DNA of 33,911 nucleotides. It comes from an uncultured Clostridia bacterium. Its GTDB lineage: Bacteria > Bacillota > Clostridia > Lutisporales > Lutisporaceae. Below, piece after piece: positions 5,089-33,727 of the stretch. The stretch covers positions 1 to 33,911 of the forward strand of contig CALGKJ010000031.1 of the NCBI GenBank assembly GCA_937930535.1. The letters run 5' to 3'. Numbering within the stretch: position 1 is the first letter of the stretch; each line of letters starts with the position of its first letter. The position numbers and the translations under genes are program-made. The notes below the pieces were generated by a model. It had not been told where the DNA came from and did not search any database. It saw only the letters and a list, made by a program, of their open reading frames with translations.

Positions 5089-5156
5089 AAGTTTAGTCCT
5101 AGTAATTCTTATTATATGGCAGAATGCCATTAGGGGAGATTACTAGGACTAAACTT
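5089..5156 (+). terminator. Strong hairpin terminator of the lipoprotein gene
   Basis: AAGTTTAGTCCTAGTAAT (5089-5106) pairs perfectly over 18 bp with 5139-5156, and the loop contains a smaller TGGC/GCCA hairpin. On the plus strand the stem runs into TTTTTATAT. It also lies just beyond the end of the kinase gene on the minus strand, so it may work in both directions. Confidence 0.85.
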
Positions 5157-5190
5157 TTTATATCTTATCAACCGAATTTATTACAGTCTC
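5154..5190 (-). repeat. 37-nt element following the kinase gene (copy 1)
   Basis: Read on the minus strand this is GAGACTGTAATAAATTCGG and onward to ATAAAAAG. It is identical over 37 nt to 33426-33462. In both places it starts within 0-17 nt of a gene's stop codon and leads into a hairpin, but the two hairpins differ in sequence. Confidence 0.85.
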
Positions 5191-8838: not shown

Positions 8839-9444
8839 TTATGATTTTTTACACTTTATGCCTAATTTTACACATAATAATTTTAATTGAGTACACGCAG
8901 ACCTAGAACACATTACTTTTTCTATATCTAATGAATCAGCAAATCCTTTTATACTAGCTCCCTTTACATAGGGCTTATTAACTTTTCCAAATAAGTTTTT
9001 TAGCTTGTCCGCTCCATTGCTACCATGGAAATTTACATTATCAGATAGTTTCAGATACTTAAATATGCCTTGTAAATCGTTAAGAATCCAATCTTCTATA
9101 GAACGTTTAGCCTGTACATGCACTATGTTTTTTGCACCTGCTTCTTTTAATGCTTTTTCTACATCTTTCCAATCAACTGGAGGTTTAGATGAAAATTCAA
9201 AAACATCTGTATCATAGCATAAAAATATATCAAACTCTACATCAGGGTTTTTGGGTATGATTTCTTTTGTAAAAACTCTAATAGCTCTATTCTTATAATT
9301 TCCAATACCCTTTAGATTTCGTATTATTAGTTTATCTATTGAAAATCTCTTGTTAGGACACATAGAATGTAACTTGTCTATAAATTTATCGTAAATTTCC
9401 TTTTCAGTGTCTCCCTCAATAAAAATTACTACCCCTTTATTCAT
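8839..9444 (-). CDS. TOPRIM-like protein, partner of the AAA ATPase
   Basis: The 201-residue protein starts at the ATG at 9444 (MNKGVVIFIEGDTEKE), which follows GGAGG and overlaps the 3' end of the ATPase gene by 8 nt. Three motifs fit the TOPRIM-like fold of the RloB/DUF4276/DUF4435 and OLD-nuclease groups: an N-terminal acidic turn FIEGDTEKEIYDKF (Glu10), an acidic pair DIFLCYDTDVF, and a later RSIEDWILND. Proteins of this type act as nucleases or toxic effectors controlled by an ABC-type ATPase in phage defence pairs such as PARIS, AbiL or OLD/Gabija. I cannot place it in one named system. A nuclease activity is inferred from the acidic residues. Confidence 0.65.
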   Translation of the reverse strand: MNKGVVIFIEGDTEKEIYDKFIDKLHSMCPNKRFSIDKLIIRNLKGIGNYKNRAIRVFTKEIIPKNPDVEFDIFLCYDTDVFEFSSKPPVDWKDVEKALKEAGAKNIVHVQAKRSIEDWILNDLQGIFKYLKLSDNVNFHGSNGADKLKNLFGKVNKPYVKGASIKGFADSLDIEKVMCSRSACTQLKLLCVKLGIKCKKS

Positions 9445-10786
9445 ATCTAGGTTCCTCCAAGTAGTGCTCAAGTGCTGAAAGATCTTCATCCGTGCCGCTT
9501 AGCAACTCGAAAATATAGTCGCCTACGGACATTCCAAGACTGCTCGCATCACTAATAATTGTCTTTTGAGCAGATTGGCGTATACGAGAAAACTTTGCAA
9601 TTCCATTTGAGTGAGGTATACCAACATAAACATTATGAGGTTCTAAATATTGTATAATATATGGCGAATGACTGGTAACAATCACTTTACAATTTACAAT
9701 AAATTGCGATAATACTCTAAGATATTTTTGCAGCAAACTAGGGTGTATTGAGTTCTCCGGTTCTTCAATTGCAACAATAGCGTATCCGTTAATATCTGCA
9801 AGCAATATACTCGTCAAAACTAAAAATACTCTTTTCGCTCCATCAGAAATGCTTTCAAAGCTTATTGGCTGATTAATATTACTATCTATTACATATAAGA
9901 AGTATAGCTGATTATCTATTCTAAGGGGTATATCATTAGGCAGATTGGCTTCAATGATATTTTTTCTTTCTAATTTTTCAACTATGATATCAGTTATTTG
10001 TGGAAAAAGCAGTGTAAATGAATTTATTAATAGCTCATATTTATCAGGAAATTGCTTCTTTAAGTGAAAAATAGTCCTAGGTATATTTACGTTATTATCC
10101 ATATGCAATACTTCCATATCCGTTCGGATAAAAGACTCTGGATCATATGATGAGCTGGCATCTAAATGTCTTTCTATGTACATGCTAATATTATTAATCC
10201 TTTTGATCATTTCAAAATAGTAAAGAAAATCAAATGCCTTTAGTTTATTTATAATGAGTTCATTTGACTCAATATTAGTCTTATTACTACATCTTCCACT
10301 TTCAGATGTTCTATAATATGCTTCATCCTCAGTGCGGATAATATAGCTATTATACTTTTGGTTTTTTTCATCTAGTTTAATCTTTAGCCATTCTCCAACT
10401 ATACGTGCTCCAGTATCATCGTCTCTTAACCATCTAAACTGGTATCCATAAATAGCTTTATACCTTTTTTCCTCTATTACAGTTGACATCTCAAGTTGAA
10501 TAAAATAATCCTCTGATGCCATCTGTTTATTCAACGGCACACCTTTAGTCCATGACATCATATGCTTTTTAACCATTTCATCATATCTAATAAAATCAAT
10601 ACCAAAATCTATAGCACTTAACACATTAGATTTACCATAGCTATTTAAAGAAACAAGGGAAAGTATATTTCCAAGCTCTATCTCCACTTTTTTTATATTT
10701 TTAAAACCGCCAACAGTTACTTTATTAATATCCACAGGAATCACCCTTTCATCTCTTGTTATTATAGTTAAATGCTTCATAAACAT
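9437..10786 (-). CDS. AAA family (ABC-type, AAA_15/AAA_21-like) ATPase
   Basis: The start is placed at the ATG at 10786 (449 residues; MFMKHLTIITRDE) because GAGGTG stands 8 nt upstream; the longer frame to 10870 lacks a ribosome site. The Walker A loop is SLNSYGKSN (Gly51-Lys52-Ser53) with Ser where the first Gly usually is. An ABC-like signature follows (ESISDGAKRVF), then Walker B (AIVAIEEPENSIHP) and the switch histidine (VTSHSPYIIQYL). This is the OLD/RecF-like ATPase class. It is cotranscribed and translationally coupled with the TOPRIM-like gene, which resembles two-component anti-phage ATPase/effector systems where the ATPase senses infection. The role is inferred from this arrangement. 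Confidence 0.8.
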   Translation of the reverse strand: MFMKHLTIITRDERVIPVDINKVTVGGFKNIKKVEIELGNILSLVSLNSYGKSNVLSAIDFGIDFIRYDEMVKKHMMSWTKGVPLNKQMASEDYFIQLEMSTVIEEKRYKAIYGYQFRWLRDDDTGARIVGEWLKIKLDEKNQKYNSYIIRTEDEAYYRTSESGRCSNKTNIESNELIINKLKAFDFLYYFEMIKRINNISMYIERHLDASSSYDPESFIRTDMEVLHMDNNVNIPRTIFHLKKQFPDKYELLINSFTLLFPQITDIIVEKLERKNIIEANLPNDIPLRIDNQLYFLYVIDSNINQPISFESISDGAKRVFLVLTSILLADINGYAIVAIEEPENSIHPSLLQKYLRVLSQFIVNCKVIVTSHSPYIIQYLEPHNVYVGIPHSNGIAKFSRIRQSAQKTIISDASSLGMSVGDYIFELLSGTDEDLSALEHYLEEPRYE

Positions 10787-11131
10787 AATTATAGCACCTC
10801 GTTTCGATTTACGCAATATAATATTACGCCTATTAAACATTATATGCATACATTCGGCATTATTATTCACGTTATGTAAAATTATTTTGCATTGTATTAA
10901 AATTCTACAGTTAATATTGTGATTTTGCGTATAGTATATAAGAAACGCTTACAATATGAAACAGGCTAATTCCCACTACAAATAATGTGTATTAGCCTAA
11001 CAAACTAATGGATTTGAATTTTATTAACTTTATATATTATTGATGGTTTCTTTTACACTAACTTCTAATAAATGTTTTTTGTAAGATAGTTTATAAAAAT
11101 CCAATCAATCCTATAGCCTAGCAACTTTACA
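10787..11131. other. Divergent intergenic region, about 345 bp
   Basis: The region lies between the ATPase gene (minus) and the acetyltransferase gene (plus). It holds one modest hairpin (AGGCTAAT near 10965 and ATTAGCCT near 10990) without a clear T-run. I see no convincing promoter for the ATPase operon and no small ORF with a ribosome site. Confidence 0.4.
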
Positions 11132-12562: not shown

Positions 12563-13447
12563 TTAAAAAAATGAAAGCTGCATATTTTCATAGTCACTTT
12601 TTGATGCTTGTCTGATATCCGACATTTTGTATATTAAGCCATACTTTTCACATTCTGCTTTCAATACCTTCCACAAGCTTTCCTGATTTATGGAATTACA
12701 AACATAGCTGTCTCCATACTGGTTGATATATCTCTGCTTTAACCCCGGAAACAACCTGTCCAATTGCTGATAGTAGTATACCCTCTGATTTTGTCTGAGG
12801 GTTACTCCAAAAAAGGGATTAACAAACTTAGCTCCATTCTCGGCAGCAGCTCTTACAATAAGCCTGATATTTTCCTCCGTATCGTTGATAAAAGGCAATA
12901 TAGGATGAATAAGCACCCCTGTAAATATACCTGCCTGTGATATCTGCTTTATGGCTGCCAAGCGTTTTGAGGTTACGGCAACATGGGGTTCTATCTTTTT
13001 GCACAGCTCATCCTCAAAGGTTGTTATTGTAAGCTTAACCATTGCTGGTGAATGCTCTTTTATTCTTTGAAGTATATCTATATCCCTAACTACCAAGTCT
13101 GATTTTGTAAGCAGATTTGCTCCAAAGCCATATTTTCTGATAAGCTCAAGAGCCCCTCTGGTAAGCTTGTGCTTTTCTTCAAAGGGGTTATAGGGATCAG
13201 TCATGGCACCTGTCCCTACTATTCCCTTTTTCCTTTTGGACTTTAGCTCCTTTTCCAGCAGTAACAGCACGTTTTGCTTGGCTCTGACTTCATCAAAGTT
13301 GTCTACCTTGTAGCAGTCGCTTCTTGAATCGCAGTATATACAGCCATGACAGCAGCCTTTATAGATATTCATATTATAGTTGCTGCCAAACCAGCCCTCT
13401 CCGTTTGACCAGGCTGATAGTATTTGTTTTGCTTCTATGTATTGCAT
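12563..13447 (-). CDS. SPL-family radical SAM protein
   Basis: The 294-residue protein has the radical SAM cluster motif C32-x3-C36-x2-C39 (GCCHGCIYCDSR), the SPL/Rv2578c-like motif GAMTDPYNPFEEK, and LLTKSDLVVRDIDILQRI. Members relate to spore photoproduct lyase but mostly have unknown substrates; this one lacks any clear DNA-binding extension. I use the ATG at 13447 because AAAGGTG stands just before it. A family 2 structured repeat ends 50 nt upstream. A paralogue with the same motifs is in the plus-strand operon (31810-32625), but the two differ greatly outside the core. Confidence 0.85.
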   Translation of the reverse strand: MQYIEAKQILSAWSNGEGWFGSNYNMNIYKGCCHGCIYCDSRSDCYKVDNFDEVRAKQNVLLLLEKELKSKRKKGIVGTGAMTDPYNPFEEKHKLTRGALELIRKYGFGANLLTKSDLVVRDIDILQRIKEHSPAMVKLTITTFEDELCKKIEPHVAVTSKRLAAIKQISQAGIFTGVLIHPILPFINDTEENIRLIVRAAAENGAKFVNPFFGVTLRQNQRVYYYQQLDRLFPGLKQRYINQYGDSYVCNSINQESLWKVLKAECEKYGLIYKMSDIRQASKSDYENMQLSFF

Positions 13448-13496
13448 GATAATCACCTTTTATTGATAAGATTTGTGTGTTTTAGCATACAGTTAT

Positions 13497-24010: not shown

Positions 24011-24307
24011 ATGTTTAGAAAACGAATCGCATCTGTACTTATTGTTGTACTTATTTTAACTCTTTCAGTAACTTTAGTTTCAGCAATACATTCTCATAAC
24101 TATGTAATAATCGGCGGCAATTCCTACAATAGCTATTCTAGCCACCCTTTTACAGCTGATTTAGGAGGTGGAGTTAAAATTCCCATGGTATGCGATGTTA
24201 CTACAACATATTGGAGTGCTGCATATAAGTGTACTATTTGTGCATCTTCATATGTAGATAGCGGTACTTCTTATTACCACGCAAATCCATATTGCCCAAG
24301 TCACTAA
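24011..24307 (+). CDS. Small secreted Cys-containing protein (98 aa)
   Basis: The ATG follows AAGGAGGTGAATAT. Residues 1-26 form a classic signal peptide (MFRKRIASVLIVVLILTLSV, then TLVSA with cleavage before IHSHNY). The mature part, about 72 residues, is rich in Tyr, Ser and His and has four cysteines, two as a CTIC pair (PMVCDVTT, YKCTICASSY, NPYCPSH), so disulfides or metal binding are possible. It is released to the outside or the cell wall. I do not recognise a family. It has its own promoter and a strong terminator (24324-24373), so it is a separate transcript from the operon that follows. Confidence 0.75.
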   Translation: MFRKRIASVLIVVLILTLSVTLVSAIHSHNYVIIGGNSYNSYSSHPFTADLGGGVKIPMVCDVTTTYWSAAYKCTICASSYVDSGTSYYHANPYCPSH

Positions 24308-24382: not shown

Positions 24383-24690
24383 CTATCGTTTACTTTTTAT
24401 AAATTCAATAAATCTTAAAGCCTCACTGTATTCCTCTTTGCTCAAATCACCTAAGTCAATACTAGTAGCTTCTTGTGGATGTATGTTTTTTGTTTTCTTT
24501 ACATTTATAAAAAATGTGGCGATAGTACCCGTAAGCATACCAATGAATCCAATGCCAACTAACATTAAAATTGCAGCAACAATTCTGCCTTGGGCTGTAA
24601 TAGGAGAAATATCTCCATATCCAACGGTCGTTACAGTAACAAAGCTCCACCAAAGAGCATCTGCAAAATTATGTCGATTGCCGTCGAACG
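24383..24690 (-). pseudogene. 5'-truncated potassium channel gene
   Basis: The minus frame reads ADALWWSFVTVTTVGYGDIS, the pore helix and TVGYGD selectivity filter of two-transmembrane potassium channels, then the second membrane helix (GRIVAAILMLVGIGFIGMLT) and a short cytoplasmic tail ending in EALRFIEFIKSKR. The first membrane helix and any start codon are missing: just upstream the frame meets a TAA at 24716-24718. An internal Met could start a 60-residue fragment, but it would lack the filter. It therefore looks like the remains of a gene whose 5' half was lost, with the promoter of the plus-strand operon now at the break. Confidence 0.8.
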
Positions 24691-24697
24691 ATATCCT

Positions 24698-24727
24698 TTG
24701 ACAACATATACCATATTATAGTATAAA
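24698..24727 (+). promoter_or_regulatory. Promoter of the seven-gene operon
   Basis: TTGACA (24698-24703, full consensus), an 18-nt spacer and TATAAA (24722-24727). It starts at the break point of the truncated channel gene. Transcription would start near 24734. Confidence 0.75.
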
Positions 24728-24733
24728 TAATAA

Positions 24734-24909
24734 AGTATTTGTAAAAAGCGAGTTATATACGTGAATTGCGGATACAACTTGCTTTTGGGGTAAAGTCCTT
24801 GAAAGTTTATGAGAGTATATATACCCTTAATGTATTCATTGCTTACCCTACTGCATATGAAATTTTATGCACATACTATATTTTACTTAACTATGATCGG
24901 AGGATTAAA
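24734..24909 (+). promoter_or_regulatory. Long leader of the seven-gene operon with a hairpin
   Basis: The predicted leader is about 175 nt. AAAAGCGAGTT (24744-24754) can pair with AACTTGCTTTT (24776-24786), one G-U included. No T-run follows, so it is not a terminator. It may be a regulatory structure, but no known riboswitch class was recognised. Confidence 0.3.
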
Positions 24910-25890
24910 ATGGTAACTAACGAAAAAACATCGATAATATGGAATTTAACACAATTGTGCTCATGGAATTGCAAATTTTGTTGTGTAAACGCAAAATATA
25001 TTGGTGATTTAACCCAAGTAAATACGGATAAGAATATTAATTATTCCCATAAAAATGAGCTAAGCTATAAGGAAAAAATAGAAATTATTAATCAGCTTAC
25101 CTTTGGGAAGTACAAGATTGATTTTTCAGGTGGAGAAGTGCTGATTGATCCGCTAAATATTGATTTGATTTTGTATGCTTCCGAGAAGCTAGGTGCTGAA
25201 AATATAGGAATCAGCACGTCGGGTTCATTTTTCACCGATGACGTTATAAAAAAATTGGCAGGAAAAGTCCGAGATGTAGAGCTTACATTAGATTACCTTC
25301 CATTCAGACCATATAAATTCAGACCAGTAGGCTATCATGAATATGCTTCATATTCTATAAACAGACTTATTGCTAATAACTTTAGAGTAGGTGTACAAAC
25401 CGTAATTACAAAGGATAATATAAGCCAGAAAAAGATATCAGAAATGTATAATTGGCTTGTCAAAAATGGTGTGCATGAGTGGAGCTTGCTAAGGTTTTTT
25501 CCAGCAGGAAGGGGAAAAAAATATGCCGATTTTGTTCCATCACATATTGAATACTGCAACGTAGTAGATTATATTAAAAAAATATCTAAAAATAGTCCTT
25601 TGGAAGTTCACTTCCAATACCTCCTTCCGAACCATAATAGCTATACACACCAATGCAGAGCTGTAAAAAAGTCAATAGGTATTTTACCTGACGGTACAGT
25701 AACAGCATGCTTCTGGGCTCTAAATGATGAAATGAAACCCCAAGATGATATCTTTTATTTAGGAAATGCATCAAAAGATAACATTGAAAGTATTTTAAGT
25801 AATGAAAAGTCAAACTACTGGAAATCATGCAGCCATGAATGTAAAATTTTCAAAGATGAATCTGTATTAAGTGAGCTTATAAAGCCCTGA
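24910..25890 (+). CDS. Radical SAM enzyme with partial SPASM/twitch-like C-terminus
   Basis: The ATG at 24910 follows CGGAGGATTAAA and gives 326 residues. The cluster motif is C17-x3-C21-x2-C24 (LTQLCSWNCKFCCVNA), with IDFSGGEVLIDP (GGE motif for SAM binding) next. The C-terminal part has a twitch/SPASM-like set of cysteines: HQCRAVKKSIGILPDGTVTA, then CFWALN and SCSHECKIF, which may hold a second Fe-S cluster. Such enzymes modify peptides, sugars or cofactors by radical chemistry. It is the first gene of the operon, followed 53 nt later by the amylase. No precursor peptide gene is evident inside the operon; a sugar substrate is therefore at least as likely as a peptide. Confidence 0.82.
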   Translation: MVTNEKTSIIWNLTQLCSWNCKFCCVNAKYIGDLTQVNTDKNINYSHKNELSYKEKIEIINQLTFGKYKIDFSGGEVLIDPLNIDLILYASEKLGAENIGISTSGSFFTDDVIKKLAGKVRDVELTLDYLPFRPYKFRPVGYHEYASYSINRLIANNFRVGVQTVITKDNISQKKISEMYNWLVKNGVHEWSLLRFFPAGRGKKYADFVPSHIEYCNVVDYIKKISKNSPLEVHFQYLLPNHNSYTHQCRAVKKSIGILPDGTVTACFWALNDEMKPQDDIFYLGNASKDNIESILSNEKSNYWKSCSHECKIFKDESVLSELIKP

Positions 25891-25943
25891 TAATTATACA
25901 TCGGAATGCTAAGCTCAAAGAGCTAGAAAGGTAGGAAGTTTTA

Positions 25944-27947
25944 ATGGAGCTGAAACACTTTAAAAAGGAGTTTGTTGCATACACTGACACCAAGATTTCT
26001 TCATTGGTTTTTGGTGCACTTCCATCTGTGGGACGATATTTTACAAAGCCCTGTAAAAAAATTAGTGATGGAGTATTTAAAGTTGAAATAGAAGCACCAG
26101 AAGGTGATTTATATTACCACTTTAAATATGGTGACGGATGGGAGAATGTGTTGTTAGACCCTAATAATACACAAGAAGGGGCAAAAAGCTGGCATTCAAT
26201 CTGTAGATTAGGAACAGTGCATTTGCTTCCTATAGAGTTTGATCTAACTCCTTCCTATATTTTTAAAGTATCAGAGCATGATTATGAACTAAAGATTATA
26301 TCTTATCATGAATGGGTGTCGACAGTTACCATTTTACTATTTGATAATGATGAAAATTTAGTTTCTGAGGTTGAACCCGAATTATGTTATAAATATAAAG
26401 GCTGCAAATATTTTAAATTGCTGATTAATCAAAATGAACTTCTTGAAAAAAAGTTCTGTATAAAGATCTATGGGAATAATAGCATTTATTATTATGGTAA
26501 AAACAAAAAAATGAATAAGGATATAAACTCACTATTCTCATTAAACAGAAATGACAGCTATGCAGAAAATCAAAGCTTACACACAGAAGTCGTTTATCAT
26601 ATATTTCCTGACTCATTTAACCGCTGTGCTGATATTACAAGCGAGACAGAAAAAATCACCTTCGCTCCTTGGGATAGTATGCCAGATGGTAAAAAGCTAT
26701 TTGGTGGGAATATAAACGGAATACGTGAAAAACTAGACTACATAAAAGAAATAGGTGCTTCATGTATATATCTAACACCTGTGTTTAATGCAAAAAGTAA
26801 CCATAGGTATGATTGCATCTCATTTACTGAAATTGATCCCATATTAGGTAGTCCCGCTGATTTCAGAAAGCTTGTAGAAGAGTGTCACCAAAAGAACATA
26901 AAAGTAGTTCTGGATATAGTACTAAATCACTGTGGAATTAATTTCTGGGCGTTTCAGGATGTCCTTAAAAATCAGGACAAATCTAAGTATAAAGACTGGT
27001 TTATTATAGAAAAATTTCCTGTAGAGGTGAAAGAGAATAATCCAAGCTACAGCGGCTGGTGGGGTAATGGATATATGCCACAATTTAAATTGGAAAACCC
27101 TGAGTTAAAATACTATTTATTAGAGTGCTGTACACACTGGGTTAAATCCTATGAAATAGACGGCTGGAGGCTTGATGTTGCTCCTGAGCTTGGTTTTGAG
27201 TTCTTGAGGGAAATTAGGGTATATATGACCAAATTAAAAAAAGATATTCTAATCATAGGTGAAAACTGGAAAGACTCTAGGAAATTTCTTTATGGTGACC
27301 AGCTTAATGCAGTTACAAATTATCTCGTGTGGTGGAAGGGCTTTGAGCCTTTCTTTATAAGAAAAAGTTTAAAACTGTCTGAATTTATAAATAACCTTAT
27401 GCACTGCTATTTTATATATCCCCATGTTAGAGCACTTGAAAACTGGACTATTATCAGCAGTCACGATATACCGAGATTCTCACCTATGCTGACTGAATCT
27501 AACGATATTTATAAAGCTGTATTTATGCAGATATTCTTTCCAGGTAGTCCCGTGATTTACTATGGTGACGAAATTGGTATGGAAGGAAAGGATGATCCTG
27601 ATAACAGGCGATGTATGGATTGGTCTGTAGTTAATTCTGAAAATAAGCTTTTAAATTGGTATAGAAAGCTTTTAATGATACGCAATAAAGAAGATATAAT
27701 AGTAAAAGGTCATTTTAAAGTTGTTTATATTAGTGACGATGATCAAATCCTAATATTTTCTCGCTACTTAGATACTGATGAAATCTACTTCATTATAAAC
27801 TTTTCTGATTTGGACAAGCAGTTGGATCTATCGGAAAAAATAGGAGCATTTTGCTTTTATGATATACTAAATCAAATTGATAGTATTAAAAATCAGATTA
27901 CAGTTAGTGGTGGATATTTCTCTATATTAAAACGACAAATTATTTAA
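25944..27947 (+). CDS. GH13 alpha-amylase-type glycoside hydrolase (neopullulanase/cyclomaltodextrinase-like)
   Basis: The 667-residue protein has an N-terminal beta-rich domain (about residues 1-200) as in GH13_20-type enzymes, then the catalytic barrel: DIVLNHCG (His329), GWRLDVAPE with nucleophile Asp411, IIGENW with acid/base Glu440, and SSHDIPR with His507/Asp508. PGSPVIYYGDEIGMEG closes the barrel and a small C-terminal beta domain follows. No signal peptide is present, so it acts in the cytoplasm. It should hydrolyse or transfer alpha-1,4-glucosyl units on maltodextrins or related compounds. Its place beside a glycogen-synthase-like gene suggests trimming or remodelling of the same glucan. 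Confidence 0.88.
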   Translation: MELKHFKKEFVAYTDTKISSLVFGALPSVGRYFTKPCKKISDGVFKVEIEAPEGDLYYHFKYGDGWENVLLDPNNTQEGAKSWHSICRLGTVHLLPIEFDLTPSYIFKVSEHDYELKIISYHEWVSTVTILLFDNDENLVSEVEPELCYKYKGCKYFKLLINQNELLEKKFCIKIYGNNSIYYYGKNKKMNKDINSLFSLNRNDSYAENQSLHTEVVYHIFPDSFNRCADITSETEKITFAPWDSMPDGKKLFGGNINGIREKLDYIKEIGASCIYLTPVFNAKSNHRYDCISFTEIDPILGSPADFRKLVEECHQKNIKVVLDIVLNHCGINFWAFQDVLKNQDKSKYKDWFIIEKFPVEVKENNPSYSGWWGNGYMPQFKLENPELKYYLLECCTHWVKSYEIDGWRLDVAPELGFEFLREIRVYMTKLKKDILIIGENWKDSRKFLYGDQLNAVTNYLVWWKGFEPFFIRKSLKLSEFINNLMHCYFIYPHVRALENWTIISSHDIPRFSPMLTESNDIYKAVFMQIFFPGSPVIYYGDEIGMEGKDDPDNRRCMDWSVVNSENKLLNWYRKLLMIRNKEDIIVKGHFKVVYISDDDQILIFSRYLDTDEIYFIINFSDLDKQLDLSEKIGAFCFYDILNQIDSIKNQITVSGGYFSILKRQII

Positions 27948-27962
27948 ACTGGAGTGGTATAC

Positions 27963-28976
27963 GTGGAAAAAATAATCTTCTTGCTTTTGAGCCTTATATC
28001 TGGGTGTGTGGAGCTGGGGGGAGTAGTTTATGCAATATCAATGAAATTATCTATATTAAATATTGTTGGCATAGGCTTCGCCTATCAGCTAGGCAATCTC
28101 GTTCCTAATCCAGTAAAATTTAATAAAGCATTGACTTTTACTTCTTCTTTTCTAGGACTGATATGTTTTTGTTTCATTAAATTTTGTTCATATAACTATT
28201 GGATCTTGTTTTTAGGTTACATTTTTATAGCTATGTCAATACAATCCCTACGTTCATTGCAAAAGGATAAAGTAAGTACTACTACTAAAAGATTATTCAG
28301 AATACTTGGCTTTGTTGTGTCTCCTTTTATTCAAATTGGTACGGCGGCAATTATTTCCATGATTTTACTCGTAGTATGCCTATATTCTAAATGGTCTGAT
28401 AATAAAATAAAGCTTGTTAAACCAAACTTCAAATTTATTAACGCTATTATGGTGGTTCATCAAATACATTATTTTTGTTATGCATATTTTATATTGATAC
28501 TAATTGCGAAAATGGTTAATATTAACTCTTTGTGGTTACTGGGAATATTGTTTACATTTGGCTGGCTGACATATATAAGTGTTCCACATATCTTAATAGG
28601 TAATAAATTTGCTCGATATTTTATTGCTGGTCACCTTTTGCTGACTGTTATATTAATCCTATTATCACAAAGCTCTGATATTTCATTAATTATTGTTCTG
28701 TGGATTCTAACTGGTTTTGGCGGCGGTACTGTATTTTGCATAGAAAAATTGAACCACATGACAAAGGATTGTTGTAAAAGTGATATAGTTTTTTCTGAAA
28801 ATATTGGTCATATTATAGGTGTTTTAATAGGTATGTTTGTTTATTTGCTATCTGATAATATTAGTCTTCCTATATTTATAAGTGCAGCATTTGCTGGATT
28901 AACAGCCCTATTAATGACAGTATATAATTTTTTTATATTAAAGAATAGACTATCAGTTATAGATAAAGGATTATAG
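27963..28976 (+). CDS. Polytopic membrane protein (MFS-like)
   Basis: The GTG at 27963 (MEKIIFLLLSLISGCVELGG) follows GGAG by 8 nt and starts 16 nt after the amylase stop; 337 residues. About ten hydrophobic segments span the sequence. The fold looks like a reduced MFS transporter, e.g. ILTGFGGGTVFCIEKLNHM late in the protein, but no motif A was found and the family is uncertain. It is likely in the cytoplasmic membrane and may export or import the product of the operon. It is unlike the two clear MFS proteins in this window. Confidence 0.65.
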   Translation: MEKIIFLLLSLISGCVELGGVVYAISMKLSILNIVGIGFAYQLGNLVPNPVKFNKALTFTSSFLGLICFCFIKFCSYNYWILFLGYIFIAMSIQSLRSLQKDKVSTTTKRLFRILGFVVSPFIQIGTAAIISMILLVVCLYSKWSDNKIKLVKPNFKFINAIMVVHQIHYFCYAYFILILIAKMVNINSLWLLGILFTFGWLTYISVPHILIGNKFARYFIAGHLLLTVILILLSQSSDISLIIVLWILTGFGGGTVFCIEKLNHMTKDCCKSDIVFSENIGHIIGVLIGMFVYLLSDNISLPIFISAAFAGLTALLMTVYNFFILKNRLSVIDKGL

Positions 28977-28989
28977 AGGGAGGTTTGCT

Positions 28990-30534
28990 GTGAAATCTAA
29001 TACTTTATATAATAATCAAAATCATACAGATGAAAAAAAGATGTGTACCACATCGAAAGAAGGATGCATTGTTCATGTAGCTGCCGAATCTGCTCCGTTC
29101 TCTAAAAGAGGCGGACTTGGTGATGTTGTAGGTAGCTTGCCTATATATATAAGTGAAGAAAGTGAAATGACTAATGTTGTTTTTACTCCATACTATTCAA
29201 ATATGCAGGGAAACTTTAGTATTGAATTTTCGGGTCAATTTGATTTTAATGGTATTAATTATTCATATAAAATCTTAGGTGCTAATATGGGCAATGTAAA
29301 GTATTATTTTGTTGATGCGGAGGATACATACTCTTTTGATAATGTTTATATAGATGGAAATAAACCATATCAGACAGATGTTGGATTGCACTATTTTATA
29401 CTAGGCAAATGTATAATTTATTTTTTAAGAGAATTGAAAGTAAAGGTTCATTCAGTTATAACGCATGACTGGCATTCAGCAGGGATATATCCCTATATAA
29501 AGCTTTTAGAAGACTACCAATGCAGCAGGGTGAACTCCATTCATATAGTTCATAATTATCATCACCAAGGTGAGCTGTTTTATGATATATCTGAATATCT
29601 TGAGGATGATTTGGCGGTGAAAATACTAGAACAGTACGAAAAAATCGGGTGGTGCAGTATGAACACCATTGCCATAATGGAAGCGAATCATATTGTTGCA
29701 GTTAGTCCATCCTATGCAAAAGAACTAAATGAGAAAGTGGCACCACATGCTGGTCTGGAGGTTTTAGATTTTAGAAAGGACAGGGTGGTTGGAATTCTTA
29801 ATGGTATAGACACCAAGCTGTGGAATCCAGAAAATGATAGTTACATAGTTAAGCCTTTTAGTTATAAAACAATCGAATATAAGTATGAAAATAAAAAACA
29901 CATACTTGAAAAGCTTAAGCTTATGCCTGATATGGACATGCCTCTGTTGGCTTATATGTGCAGACTTACGCCGCAAAAAGGAATAGATTTATTCGTAGAT
30001 ATGAAAAATGGTATTTCCATTGATATTTACGAAAGAATGGAACGACTTTTAAGTAAAGGAGCTACTCTAGTAATCTGCGGTGTCCCCGCTGACGGACTTA
30101 ATGGCAGTATTAATAATCAGTTATGCAAATTACAAGATAAATTCAAATCTAATTTTAGATATATAAGTTTTTATACTGAGGAAATAGCTCACCAACTTTT
30201 TGCTGGCAGTGATATATTTTTACAGCCCTCACGTTTTGAACCCTGTGGGCTAACTCAAATGTATGCTATGAATTATGGAAGTATACCTATTGTTACACCA
30301 GTAGGAGGGCTGAAGGATACAGTATTAGATATAAGCCTTGATTCCGAAAAAGGAAATGGTTTTTATATGAGTGAATTTTCATTCGAAGCTCTTGAAACAG
30401 CAATTGATAGAGCCGTAAATATATATAGAAATAAAGAAATGTGGAACAAGCTTATTTTAAGATGTATGATTAAGGACTTTTCTTGGCAGAAAAGTATAAA
30501 ATCATACATAAAGCTGATTGACTCCTGTAGTTAG
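28990..30534 (+). CDS. Glycogen-synthase-like glycosyltransferase (GT5, GlgA-like)
   Basis: The GTG at 28990 follows AGGGAGGTTTGCT; 514 residues. The ADP-glucose-binding motif K-x-G-G-L is present (Lys39: SKRGGLGDVVGSLP), as are VGILNGID-type (RVVGILNGIDTKLWNP), MCRLTPQKGIDL and the C-terminal RFEPCGLTQMYAMNYG (Glu417) plus TPVGGLKDTV. These match bacterial glycogen synthases and starch synthases, with GT-B fold. The N-terminus has about 20 extra residues before the first strand. It should transfer glucose from a nucleotide sugar to an alpha-glucan or other acceptor. Unlike usual glycogen operons, no glgB, glgC or glgP is nearby, so the acceptor may be a special one. Confidence 0.88.
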   Translation: MKSNTLYNNQNHTDEKKMCTTSKEGCIVHVAAESAPFSKRGGLGDVVGSLPIYISEESEMTNVVFTPYYSNMQGNFSIEFSGQFDFNGINYSYKILGANMGNVKYYFVDAEDTYSFDNVYIDGNKPYQTDVGLHYFILGKCIIYFLRELKVKVHSVITHDWHSAGIYPYIKLLEDYQCSRVNSIHIVHNYHHQGELFYDISEYLEDDLAVKILEQYEKIGWCSMNTIAIMEANHIVAVSPSYAKELNEKVAPHAGLEVLDFRKDRVVGILNGIDTKLWNPENDSYIVKPFSYKTIEYKYENKKHILEKLKLMPDMDMPLLAYMCRLTPQKGIDLFVDMKNGISIDIYERMERLLSKGATLVICGVPADGLNGSINNQLCKLQDKFKSNFRYISFYTEEIAHQLFAGSDIFLQPSRFEPCGLTQMYAMNYGSIPIVTPVGGLKDTVLDISLDSEKGNGFYMSEFSFEALETAIDRAVNIYRNKEMWNKLILRCMIKDFSWQKSIKSYIKLIDSCS

Positions 30535-30565
30535 AAGTGTAAAATTAAATTTTGGAGGGGAAAAA

Positions 30566-31762
30566 ATGAAATACCTAAGAAATACAAGATTGCTCTTTGG
30601 TGTTGTTTTAGCCATAGTGTTAAGTCTATATGCACCCATTGAAGTTGTATACCTGAATAAAGTAGGAATCCCTATGTCCATTATTTCCATACTTAATCTT
30701 ATTGTTCCAGTGTCGTGTGCCCTTTTAGAAATACCTACTGGAATCCTTGGTGATTACATCGGTCGTAAGAAGATACTGATACTATGTATGCTTGCATTTT
30801 TTACATCAATGGTGTTACTTATATTTGCAAAAGATACATATCAGTTTTTTATTGTATATATACTTGAAGGCTTAGGATGGAGTCTTTTTTCAGGTAATAC
30901 AGATTCTATAATATATGAAGAAGCTATAGAAAAAAAAGTTGATGTCAGCAAACAGTTAGCATTTATGTATACTGCATTTGCTATAGGTCCTATTGTTTCA
31001 GGTGTTCTTAATACTACCATCTTAGGAGTTCCTAATATAAACTTTGAAGCTCTAATAATCATCTCTGCAATCGCTAGAGGAGCAGGGGTATTTCTTGCGT
31101 TTTTCATTACTACAAAAAATGACATCAGTAATAAGGATAAAGCAAAACGACTATCGCCCTTTGGAATACTCATGGAAAGCTTTAAGCTGATTAAGAGCAG
31201 CACATTTACAGCTTCAGTGATTATATATGAAGCCACTGGAAGATTAACATTCTATCTTCCAGTTATTATACAACCATTGCTTTTTAAAAGTGGTGTTAGC
31301 TTGATGTATTTTGGAATAATATTTACACTATCACAAGTAGTATCACTTATAGCCCAATATAAAGTTGATGTTATAATTAAAAAGCTTGGAATGGACTTTA
31401 TACTAAAAGCTTCACCAATAGCAATGACAATAGGGTTGCTGTTATTATTAGTACCTAGCAGGGTTTGTATAATAGGGTGCCTAATAATTATTCAACTTGT
31501 ATCACCCATTAGAAGTCAGTGCTTGACATTGCAGAAAAATAGTTTAGTAAATAACGAAATAAGAGCAACGTATGTTTCAACAATATCCTTCGCAGTGTTA
31601 TTATTTAATGCGGCGTTTTTATCATTAGTTGGAATAATCCTAGAAAATAATTTCAATACAGGTATCTCAATACTTACAACAATCTGCTTATTAGGTGGTA
31701 TATTGCTATACAAAAACCTTATTAATATTAAATCGAATTGCGTAGATTCTGGTGCAGCTTAG
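30566..31762 (+). CDS. MFS transporter
   Basis: The ATG at 30566 follows TTGGAGGGGAAAAA; 398 residues. About 12 membrane segments and motif A GILGDYIGRKKILILC are visible, and the segment after it is typical of drug or sugar efflux MFS proteins. It lies inside the operon between the glucosyltransferase-like gene and the SPL-type radical SAM gene. It probably exports the operon product or takes up its substrate. It resembles the attenuator-controlled MFS protein at 7445-8593 in size and motif A. Confidence 0.85.
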   Translation: MKYLRNTRLLFGVVLAIVLSLYAPIEVVYLNKVGIPMSIISILNLIVPVSCALLEIPTGILGDYIGRKKILILCMLAFFTSMVLLIFAKDTYQFFIVYILEGLGWSLFSGNTDSIIYEEAIEKKVDVSKQLAFMYTAFAIGPIVSGVLNTTILGVPNINFEALIIISAIARGAGVFLAFFITTKNDISNKDKAKRLSPFGILMESFKLIKSSTFTASVIIYEATGRLTFYLPVIIQPLLFKSGVSLMYFGIIFTLSQVVSLIAQYKVDVIIKKLGMDFILKASPIAMTIGLLLLLVPSRVCIIGCLIIIQLVSPIRSQCLTLQKNSLVNNEIRATYVSTISFAVLLFNAAFLSLVGIILENNFNTGISILTTICLLGGILLYKNLINIKSNCVDSGAA

Positions 31763-31809
31763 TTTTGCCACTCTTCTTAAGAAAATTTAAAGATAAGGAT
31801 TGATATAAT

Positions 31810-32625
31810 ATGCTAACGGTTCAACATATCTCTACTAAAGAAATATTAACAAAATCTAAGCTTCCAGATGCAGACTTTGTTATAAACCCCTATGTCGGCT
31901 GCCCTCACAGATGTATCTACTGCTATGCAGAATTTATGAAACGCTTTACCAATCATAAAGAAACATGGGGTGAATTTTTAGATGTTAAACAGTGCTCCAA
32001 AAAGTTAAATACAGCTAATTTATCACAGAAAACTATATTAATTAGTTCTGTTACAGATCCATATAATCCTTACGAAGCTAAATTTAAGGCAACAAGGAAT
32101 ATATTAAATGAACTGGCGGAGTCAGATGCACGAGTTGAGATACTGACAAAATCCAGCCTTGTATTAAGGGATATTGATATAATTAAAAGGTTTAACAATA
32201 TAAAGGTAGGTATTTCGCTTAACACGCTTGATGATAAGCTTAGAAGACATTTAGAGCCTGCCGCATCTCCAATTAAAGAGAGGCTGAAAGTGTTGCAGGT
32301 ACTAAAGCAGGAAGGTATAGAAACATATTTGTTTGTATCCCCAATGTTTCCCGAGCTAACTGATTTTAAAGCAATTGTAGATTGTATCGGTGATACTGTT
32401 AGTTATTATTGCTTTGAAAATCTAAATCTGCGTGGTGGATATAAGGAAAGGATTTTAAAATTTATTTCCCAATACAGACCTGATCTTAAGTCTCTTTATT
32501 TTGATATTTATAATAATAATATGCCCTACTGGGAAAAAGTCAAAAATGATATTGAAGAAGAATTTAGCAAAAATAATCTTAAACATAAAATATATTTTTA
32601 TCATGACAAAATCAAAAAGAAATAA
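31810..32625 (+). CDS. SPL-family radical SAM protein (second copy)
   Basis: The 271-residue protein carries C31-x3-C35-x2-C38 (GCPHRCIYCYAEFMKRF) and the family motifs SSVTDPYNPYEAKF and LTKSSLVLRDIDIIKRF. A typical SPL C-terminal part (VSPMFPELTDF and YCFENLNLRG) follows. The relationship to spore photoproduct lyase is shared with the protein at 12563-13447, but the substrate is unknown. In the operon it sits just before the TIM-barrel gene with 17 nt between them. The start follows AAGGATTGATATA. Confidence 0.85.
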   Translation: MLTVQHISTKEILTKSKLPDADFVINPYVGCPHRCIYCYAEFMKRFTNHKETWGEFLDVKQCSKKLNTANLSQKTILISSVTDPYNPYEAKFKATRNILNELAESDARVEILTKSSLVLRDIDIIKRFNNIKVGISLNTLDDKLRRHLEPAASPIKERLKVLQVLKQEGIETYLFVSPMFPELTDFKAIVDCIGDTVSYYCFENLNLRGGYKERILKFISQYRPDLKSLYFDIYNNNMPYWEKVKNDIEEEFSKNNLKHKIYFYHDKIKKK

Positions 32626-32642
32626 AGGATGTATGATAAATC

Positions 32643-33425
32643 ATGGAAATAGGTATAAACTTGCAACTTCATAACATCAATCAGTCTGACAAATTAAGCG
32701 GATACGATTTTATAGAGCTGGGCGATTTTTGGTTTCCTCAGCACTTATGCAGAAAAGATTTTATGGACAACTTCCATAAAACATTAACATCTAATAAGTA
32801 TAATATTAAATGCATTCAAGGGCCAATTAGAGATATTAAACCAGAAGCTGATGACCCAGATATACTAAAAATAACCAAGGACAGATTCAAGCATTTGATA
32901 GATTTAGCAGCAGAATATGAGGCTAAATACATATTATTTAATACAACCTTTGACCCATTAGTTAAATTTGATTCATATATAAGTATGTGGCTTAACAATA
33001 ATAAAAAATTCTGGGAAGAGCTTATACCCTACGCACAGCAAAACAAGGTTGTATGCCTATATAGTAATGTATGGGATGATGAGCCTTATCTTTTAAATGA
33101 ATTATTAAACCATATAAATTCCGAATATTTTAAGTTCGGCTTTGATATAGGTCATGCAAGATATATTTCAAAAGCACCCTTGGAGGAATGGTTTAAAATC
33201 TTAGATAGACATATTGATTATGCACTAATACATGATAATTTGGGACAAAGGGATGATCACCTTTCTATTGGCAGAGGAACAATGAATTTTGATTTTATTA
33301 TGGAGCAGCTAAAAAGTCTGCATAATATTCCTGATTTGTGTGTACAGCTATTTGATGATACAAAAAATCAGGAGTGTCTGGATATGCTGAATACGTATTT
33401 GCGAAAGCATAATATTAAGATATAG
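32643..33425 (+). CDS. Xylose-isomerase-like TIM barrel protein (sugar-phosphate isomerase/epimerase family)
   Basis: The 260-residue protein has the fold and motifs of the AP_endonuc_2/xylose-isomerase-like TIM barrel family: YDFIELGDFWFPQ, YILFNTTFDP, VVCLYSNVWDDEPYLLN, FKFGFDIGHARYISKAP (metal-binding Asp/His), YALIHDNLGQRDDHLSIGRG and VQLFDD. Members isomerise or epimerise sugars and cyclitols, often with a divalent metal, and some are endonucleases; in this context a sugar or inositol-like substrate is favoured. It is the last gene of the operon; the stop at 33425 is directly followed by the 37-nt element and a hairpin. Confidence 0.8.
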   Translation: MEIGINLQLHNINQSDKLSGYDFIELGDFWFPQHLCRKDFMDNFHKTLTSNKYNIKCIQGPIRDIKPEADDPDILKITKDRFKHLIDLAAEYEAKYILFNTTFDPLVKFDSYISMWLNNNKKFWEELIPYAQQNKVVCLYSNVWDDEPYLLNELLNHINSEYFKFGFDIGHARYISKAPLEEWFKILDRHIDYALIHDNLGQRDDHLSIGRGTMNFDFIMEQLKSLHNIPDLCVQLFDDTKNQECLDMLNTYLRKHNIKI

Positions 33426-33430
33426 GAGAC

Positions 33431-33536
33431 TGTAATAAATTCGGTTGATAAGATATAAAAAGACTCCTTCCTGGTGATAATCAAATATGAATATCAGGAA
33501 GGAGCTTGCAAATATACTTCAGCCGAATTTATTACA
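33431..33536 (+). repeat. MITE-like element with 14-bp terminal inverted repeats
   Basis: TGTAATAAATTCGG at 33431-33444 is the exact reverse complement of CCGAATTTATTACA at 33523-33536. The 106-bp unit holds a hairpin in the middle. Its first 32 nt, with five preceding bases, are identical to the minus-strand element at 5154-5190. It carries no transposase. It could be a small mobile element or a mobile 3' end module. Confidence 0.65.
33464..33504 (+). terminator. Hairpin after the seven-gene operon
   Basis: CTCCTTCCTG (33464-33473) pairs with CAGGAAGGAG (33495-33504), with a further ATA/TAT after a 3-nt bulge. No long T-run follows, so it may end transcription weakly or stabilise the mRNA end. 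Confidence 0.55.
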
Positions 33537-33571: not shown

Positions 33572-33727
33572 TTATTTTAAGGAGTTAACCTTTGTATTAT
33601 AGTAAGTATAATGGCAATTTGGTCCTACTGGGTCATCCATACCAATTGCACTTACAGATACCATTGTAGATAGTATCATGGTAAAGGTAAGCATTAAGCT
33701 TATGTATAATTTTCTATTTTTCCTCAT
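33572..33727 (-). CDS. Small secreted peptide (51 aa)
   Basis: The ATG at 33727 follows GGAGGTACAAATAA and overlaps the upstream gene's stop (ATGA). The product starts MRKNRKLYISLMLTFTMILS followed by TMVSVSA, a signal peptide with likely cleavage before IGMDDP. The mature peptide is only about 24 residues (IGMDDPVGPNCHYTYYNTKV then NSLK) with one cysteine. It is too short to show a family. It may be a secreted signal or antimicrobial peptide, which is inference. It is the second gene of a two-gene unit. Confidence 0.65.
   Translation of the reverse strand: MRKNRKLYISLMLTFTMILSTMVSVSAIGMDDPVGPNCHYTYYNTKVNSLK

Follow-up and report, generated by a model that had tools for sequence, protein, structure and literature searches.

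A rare seven-gene clostridial operon combining a GlgA-like glucan synthase with two radical SAM enzymes: a possible pathway for an exported, modified malto-oligosaccharide

Introduction

What would a bacterium make with a glycogen-synthase-like enzyme and a cytoplasmic amylase that are encoded next to two radical SAM enzymes and apart from the usual glycogen genes? This question is raised by an operon in the draft genome (4.69 Mb in 252 contigs) of an uncultured Clostridia bacterium of the Lutisporaceae, here referred to as the host. The operon lies on contig C31, which was analyzed over its entire length of 33,911 nucleotides (nt) and is called the window below. An initial annotation had read the operon as a route to a modified sugar that is exported and had named no described pathway with this set of genes; in line with the latter, we found no description of the gene set in the open-licence literature. 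The gene content of the host was judged by sequence searches and from short stretches of its genome.

Results

Organization of the operon

The seven same-strand genes that had been proposed were recovered at positions 24910 to 33425, with intergenic gaps of about 6 to 53 nt, and their families were backed by Pfam and NCBIfam profiles as follows.

24698 to 24727, + strand: candidate promoter TTGACA-N18-TATAAA, seen in the sequence
24910 to 25890, + strand: gene 1, radical SAM protein with a SPASM/twitch C terminus, 326 amino acids (aa) (Pfam Radical_SAM, 43.9 bits; SPASM, 27.3 bits)
25944 to 27947, + strand: gene 2, cytoplasmic GH13 enzyme like neopullulanase, maltogenic amylase and cyclomaltodextrinase, 667 aa (Pfam Alpha-amylase, 197 bits)
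27954 (or 27963) to 28976, + strand: gene 3, rare membrane protein with an MFS fold in a predicted model, 337 to 340 aa (no Pfam or NCBIfam family)
28990 to 30534, + strand: gene 4, GlgA-like GT5 glucan synthase, 514 aa (TIGR02095, 375 bits)
30518 to 31762, + strand: gene 5, MFS transporter (Pfam MFS_1, 64 bits)
31810 to 32625, + strand: gene 6, radical SAM protein of the mobile-pair-B/PA0069/Rv2578c group, 271 aa (TIGR04470, 270 bits; cut-off, 410)
32643 to 33425, + strand: gene 7, xylose-isomerase-like TIM barrel, 260 aa (Pfam AP_endonuc_2, 57.1 bits)

The ATG of gene 1 at 24910 has a GGAGG site, and the open reading frame (ORF) could also begin at a TTG at 24766; the likely start of gene 5 is the ATG at 30566, which is preceded by GGAGGGG. 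The operon has a slightly lower GC content (32.4%) than the initial 24 kb of the window (36.7%). The hexamers that had been taken for one strong promoter are present with an 18-nt spacer; however, promoter-like sites are no more common in the region than in shuffled sequence (50 versus 55.8 ± 8.3), and therefore a strong promoter at this position is only plausible. Genes for a precursor peptide, a cyclitol synthase, a nucleotidyltransferase and a branching enzyme are all lacking from the operon. The reported lack of glgB, glgC and glgP was likewise borne out, and such genes were located elsewhere in the host genome.

The GT5 and GH13 genes are separate from the storage glycogen genes

The GT5 protein exceeded the TIGR02095 cut-off (375 versus 328 bits). 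Both the host protein and its counterpart in an operon of Clostridium cibarium Sa3CVN1, described below, contain the donor loop KxGGL (KRGGL in the host), the HN-HQG acceptor segment, the R..QKG motif (RLTPQKG in the host) and EPCG. Identity between the two proteins is 47%, compared with 26 to 32% to ordinary GlgA, and in a phylogenetic tree they formed their own clade with a support of 100/100 and a long branch. The GH13 enzyme gave its best PDB matches with 1sma and 1j0h (maltogenic amylase and neopullulanase; E value of 3e-94), and all four conserved regions with their D/E/D residues (DIVLNH, GWRLDV, GENW and SHDIPR in the host) are intact in both species. Neither enzyme has an evident signal peptide.

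A GT5 of the TIGR02095 family together with a GH13 enzyme is also what the bacterial glycogen operon (glgBCDAP) contains. The operon studied here differs from it in having no linked glgB, glgC or glgP, in the separate clade of its GT5, in its radical SAM and MFS genes and in its coexistence with an ordinary glycogen operon: contig C3 of the host carries a complete and separate glgB-glgC-glgD-like-glgA-glgP-amylase operon, and amylomaltase/phosphorylase genes are found on contig C240. Given a glgBCDAP locus elsewhere in the genome and a clade of its own for the operon GT5, we rejected an ordinary storage glycogen operon, and the concern that the GT5 and GH13 genes might be nothing but storage enzymes was dispelled.

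The locus could still be an accessory intracellular operon for a second α-glucan or maltodextrin storage or turnover system, in which the radical SAM proteins and the TIM barrel serve sugar salvage. The retained catalytic motifs and the lack of an evident signal peptide would fit such a role, and a second active GT5 could be of use to the host, whose glycogen-operon GlgA lacks the Lys and Arg that bind the donor. However, the operon has no ADP-glucose pyrophosphorylase, branching enzyme or phosphorylase, and the ordinary glg genes are located elsewhere. Moreover, C. cibarium has two ordinary GlgA genes besides the operon GT5, one of them intact, and the host has a further GlgA C terminus at a contig end. 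Two exporters and two radical SAM enzymes would also be left unexplained, and we consider this reading unlikely.

The altered GlgA of the host glycogen operon (L046:8223-9653) has NTGSL in place of the donor-loop Lys motif and SELTMQKG in place of the R..QKG arginine motif. One of the two ordinary C. cibarium GlgA proteins (L127, contig C48) is altered likewise (RSGSL and SKLNNQKG). Judging from these motifs, the Lys/Arg-deficient GlgA proteins encoded next to glgP are possible noncatalytic paralogues.

Two radical SAM proteins of different groups

Protein 1 exceeded the gathering threshold of Pfam SPASM (27.3 versus 21.5 bits) and has CxxxCxxC at residues 17/21/24 and CX12GX4C...C at residues 249/267/311, both of which are common to the C. 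cibarium copy. Outside the radical SAM motif, only C249, C267 and C311 (plus C216) are common to both copies; the full SPASM cysteine set for two auxiliary clusters was thus absent from this comparison, and the auxiliary cysteines appear to be twitch-like. Twitch radical SAM enzymes have one auxiliary cluster, and BtrN, which is among them, oxidizes an aminocyclitol (PMC9012708). Protein 1 resembles the twitch/SPASM enzymes BtrN, MoaA, PqqE, SkfB and SuiB in CxxxCxxC, in the auxiliary-cluster cysteines and in overall fold; however, its identity to them is about 15% by structure. The nearest structures to its model (pLDDT of 77) were SkfB, anSME, SuiB, viperin and PqqE, and its sequence bears a distant resemblance to TIGR04053, NirJ and the mycofactocin maturase, scoring under every NCBIfam cut-off.

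Several of these relatives invite the idea that the operon makes a RiPP or a glycopeptide, with the SPASM protein maturing a peptide and the GT5 and GH13 enzymes decorating it: SkfB, SuiB and anSME are the structures closest to the model, and the distant sequence likeness to TIGR04053, NirJ and the mycofactocin maturase points the same way. On the other hand, the SPASM cysteine set of protein 1 is partial, GT5 and GH13 proteins are not peptide enzymes, and the precursor is missing, as no small ORF preceded by a ribosome-binding site and common to the host and C. cibarium was found within or beside the operons. We regard a peptide product as quite improbable.

The second radical SAM protein, protein 6, had been described as spore photoproduct lyase (SPL) type. 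This did not survive the profile searches, in which it scored below both curated cut-offs for that enzyme (15.8 versus 27 bits for Pfam SPL and 21 versus 400 bits for TIGR04070). It was closer to the mobile pair B, PA0069 and Rv2578c models, all of them matched below their cut-offs; the nearest was TIGR04470 (rSAM mobile pair B), with 270 bits against a cut-off of 410. All the other family assignments of the initial annotation held. Protein 6 is 44% identical to mobile pair protein B, which is known from Bacteroides plasmids; however, the pair A partner is missing here and the neighbors are different. Membership in a mobile A/B pair was rejected, as protein 6 is below the TIGR04470 cut-off and protein 1 is unrelated to a pair A protein. 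The relatives of gene 6 are spread over many phyla, and no common partner gene was found around 70-odd of them. Neither radical SAM protein matched a characterized sugar-modifying family. The window also encodes a PA0069/Rv2578c-like radical SAM protein at positions 12563 to 13456 (− strand).

Membrane proteins and TIM barrel

The 337-aa membrane protein, protein 3, belongs to no family in Pfam or NCBIfam profile searches. Its AlphaFold model has 12 transmembrane segments, an MFS-like arrangement and a TM score of about 0.7 to NorA and SotB; at a pLDDT of 62 the model is of low confidence, and it suggests that protein 3 may fold like an MFS exporter. Proteins 3 and 5 have no detectable sequence similarity to each other. 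Protein 7 exceeded the gathering threshold of AP_endonuc_2 (57.1 versus 31.1 bits), and its nearest solved structure was 3wqo (MJ1311; E value of 2e-13).

The gene set is conserved in C. cibarium and occurs sporadically

C. cibarium Sa3CVN1 was recovered with gene 6 in a scan of one genome per species. According to tblastn, the full set of seven lies on a single strand in this distantly related species, spanning no more than 9.8 kb in the order 1-2-4-GT2-7-5-3-6, the additional gene encoding a family 2 glycosyltransferase (GT2). Identities to the host proteins are 55% for gene 1, 51% for gene 2, 55% for gene 3, 47% for gene 4, 35% for gene 5, 61% for gene 6 and 51% for gene 7. The possibility that the set might not be conserved in other genomes was thereby answered, and its association, as judged from the genes reunited in C. 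cibarium, is more than chance.

All searches yielded two complete copies, those of the host and C. cibarium, and a single remnant. The latter, in Peptostreptococcus porci, comprises a 70-residue C-terminal piece of gene 7 and intact genes 5 (49% identical to that of the host) and 6, with an EF-Tu gene alongside; the GlgA of this species is of the ordinary type only. Gene 3 turned up in a single genome of each sample, namely the host among 391 genomes of the class Clostridia, C. cibarium among 68 of its genus and, on the Bacillales side, Anoxybacillus tepidamans among 397 of the Anoxybacillus order. For gene 1, one of the 398 genomes sampled from the phylum had a true copy, the remaining matches scoring less than 70 bits compared with 603. 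These phylum-, class- and order-wide searches revealed no true orthologues of genes 1 and 3 beyond those already known, and the numerous weak matches to genes 1 and 7 belong to the background of their families. The operon is rare and patchy, as expected for a horizontally moved accessory pathway, and was probably acquired horizontally. A phage origin was rejected, as relatives of genes 1, 3 and 7 are absent among viral contigs and the ends of the operon have no phage genes. Searches of plasmids gave nothing for gene 3 and just distant radical SAM matches for gene 1.

The sporadic distribution, a truncated K+ channel gene to the left of the operon and a MITE-like hairpin to its right would also suit unrelated genes that travel together passively on a mobile segment. 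Yet all seven genes have been retained at 35 to 61% identity through rearrangement, the gaps are short and there are no foreign payload genes, which makes a merely passive association decidedly improbable. The GT2 gene of C. cibarium could alternatively indicate a locus for a cell-surface or secreted polysaccharide, but neither copy has a polymerase, flippase, ligase, priming transferase or ABC exporter, and long polymers are not the usual cargo of MFS proteins. Of all the readings, we hold this one to be the most improbable.

Parts of the operon recur in other settings. In A. tepidamans, a cluster (L066:3081-13632) encodes homologues of protein 3 (27 to 31% identity) and protein 6 (51%). One side comprises genes for a FemAB-like protein, an MFS protein, the mobile-pair-B-like radical SAM protein, a DUF1611 protein, the MFS-like orphan and an Asp/Glu racemase, and the divergent side a ribonucleotide-reductase-like gene and a SPASM radical SAM gene. 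This cluster, of which we found no description in the open-licence literature, shares with the operon the orphan membrane protein, the second radical SAM protein, an MFS protein and a SPASM radical SAM protein; in contrast, an amino-acid-type payload replaces the GT5, GH13 and TIM barrel genes, and the cluster is apparently natural-product-like. Relatives of proteins 1 and 6 are also paired on a Woesearchaeota contig. These shared parts suggest that proteins 1, 3 and 6 may be modules re-used across different small-molecule pathways.

Discussion

A possible pathway for an exported, modified malto-oligosaccharide

The one precedent that we found for recruitment of a GT5 outside storage metabolism is acarbose-type clusters, in which the GlgA-like GT5 AcbI extends maltose by a modified sugar and its homologue AcbS couples a pseudosugar (PMC9200736). 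The acb and gac clusters resemble the operon in placing such a GT5 (AcbI/AcbS), together with a glucan-active enzyme (the amylomaltase AcbQ), in a cluster for a maltose-based exported small molecule (PMC9200736, PMC10146171). Acarbose-type clusters encode a sugar phosphate cyclase, a cyclitol nucleotidyltransferase and usually an aminotransferase (PMC9200736). In contrast, Pfam and NCBIfam profiles identified no sugar phosphate cyclase (AcbC), nucleotidyltransferase (AcbR) or aminotransferase (AcbV) among the seven genes; furthermore, the operon GT5 has 514 aa versus over 700, and the operon has two radical SAM enzymes. Because the defining genes are missing, the operon is not a member of this group, and we regard acarbose synthesis as its closest working analogue, comparable in logic.

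We infer a modified sugar, exported from the cell, as the product. Specifically, we see an even prospect that the operon constitutes a rare, sporadic, natural-product-like pathway for an exported, radically modified malto-oligosaccharide. The interpretation of the initial annotation thus stands with respect to the conserved set and to GT5 and GH13 genes apart from those of storage glycogen, and falls with respect to an SPL-type second radical SAM enzyme. In the order proposed here, the GT5 would extend an acceptor by α-1,4-glucosyl units from nucleotide-glucose, as GlgA does, possibly in the manner of AcbI with its modified sugar. The neopullulanase-like GH13 enzyme would then trim or transglycosylate the chain until it is short and of defined length. 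Protein 1, the twitch/SPASM enzyme, may oxidize or otherwise modify a ring carbon, compare BtrN and its aminocyclitol, and the TIM barrel may isomerize or epimerize either the keto-sugar that results or a precursor. Protein 6 could add a second modification, the two MFS proteins could export the product and/or protect the producer, and the GT2 of C. cibarium might add an extra sugar or group.

More tentatively, and with less confidence than for the pathway itself, we propose a new class of oligosaccharide natural products of gut and anaerobic clostridia, in which dedicated GT5 and GH13 enzymes build and cut an α-1,4-glucan, respectively, and two radical SAM enzymes modify it without cyclitol chemistry; such a product might act as an amylase inhibitor, antibiotic or signal. 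If true, radical SAM chemistry on oligosaccharides in a dedicated cluster would point to a group of natural products from anaerobes that is still largely unexplored. As C. cibarium Sa3CVN1 is a cultured isolate, the pathway is testable.

Flanks of the operon and other features

A 5′-truncated Ion_trans_2 potassium channel remnant (24386 to 24715, − strand) abuts the start of the operon; its broken end falls in the operon promoter region and is a possible insertion boundary. Immediately 3′ of the operon lies a 105-nt near-perfect hairpin (33431 to 33536; z of −9.8) with 18-nt terminal inverted repeats. It is MITE-like, and partial copies occur elsewhere in the host genome, positions 5154 to 5188 among them. 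Small secreted Cys-containing peptides are encoded on both sides of the operon, one of 98 aa (24011 to 24307, + strand), which had no family match in a profile search, and one of 51 aa (33572 to 33727, − strand). Farther upstream, an AAA_21 ATPase and an adjoining, weakly OLD-TOPRIM-like protein (8839 to 10870, − strand) resemble a defense pair. Finally, contig C75 of the host (L163:3793-6452) encodes a 315-aa protein with repeated (N)NCVVKYGVP-like units followed by a radical SAM/SPASM-TPR protein, which together constitute a probable multi-core RiPP system.
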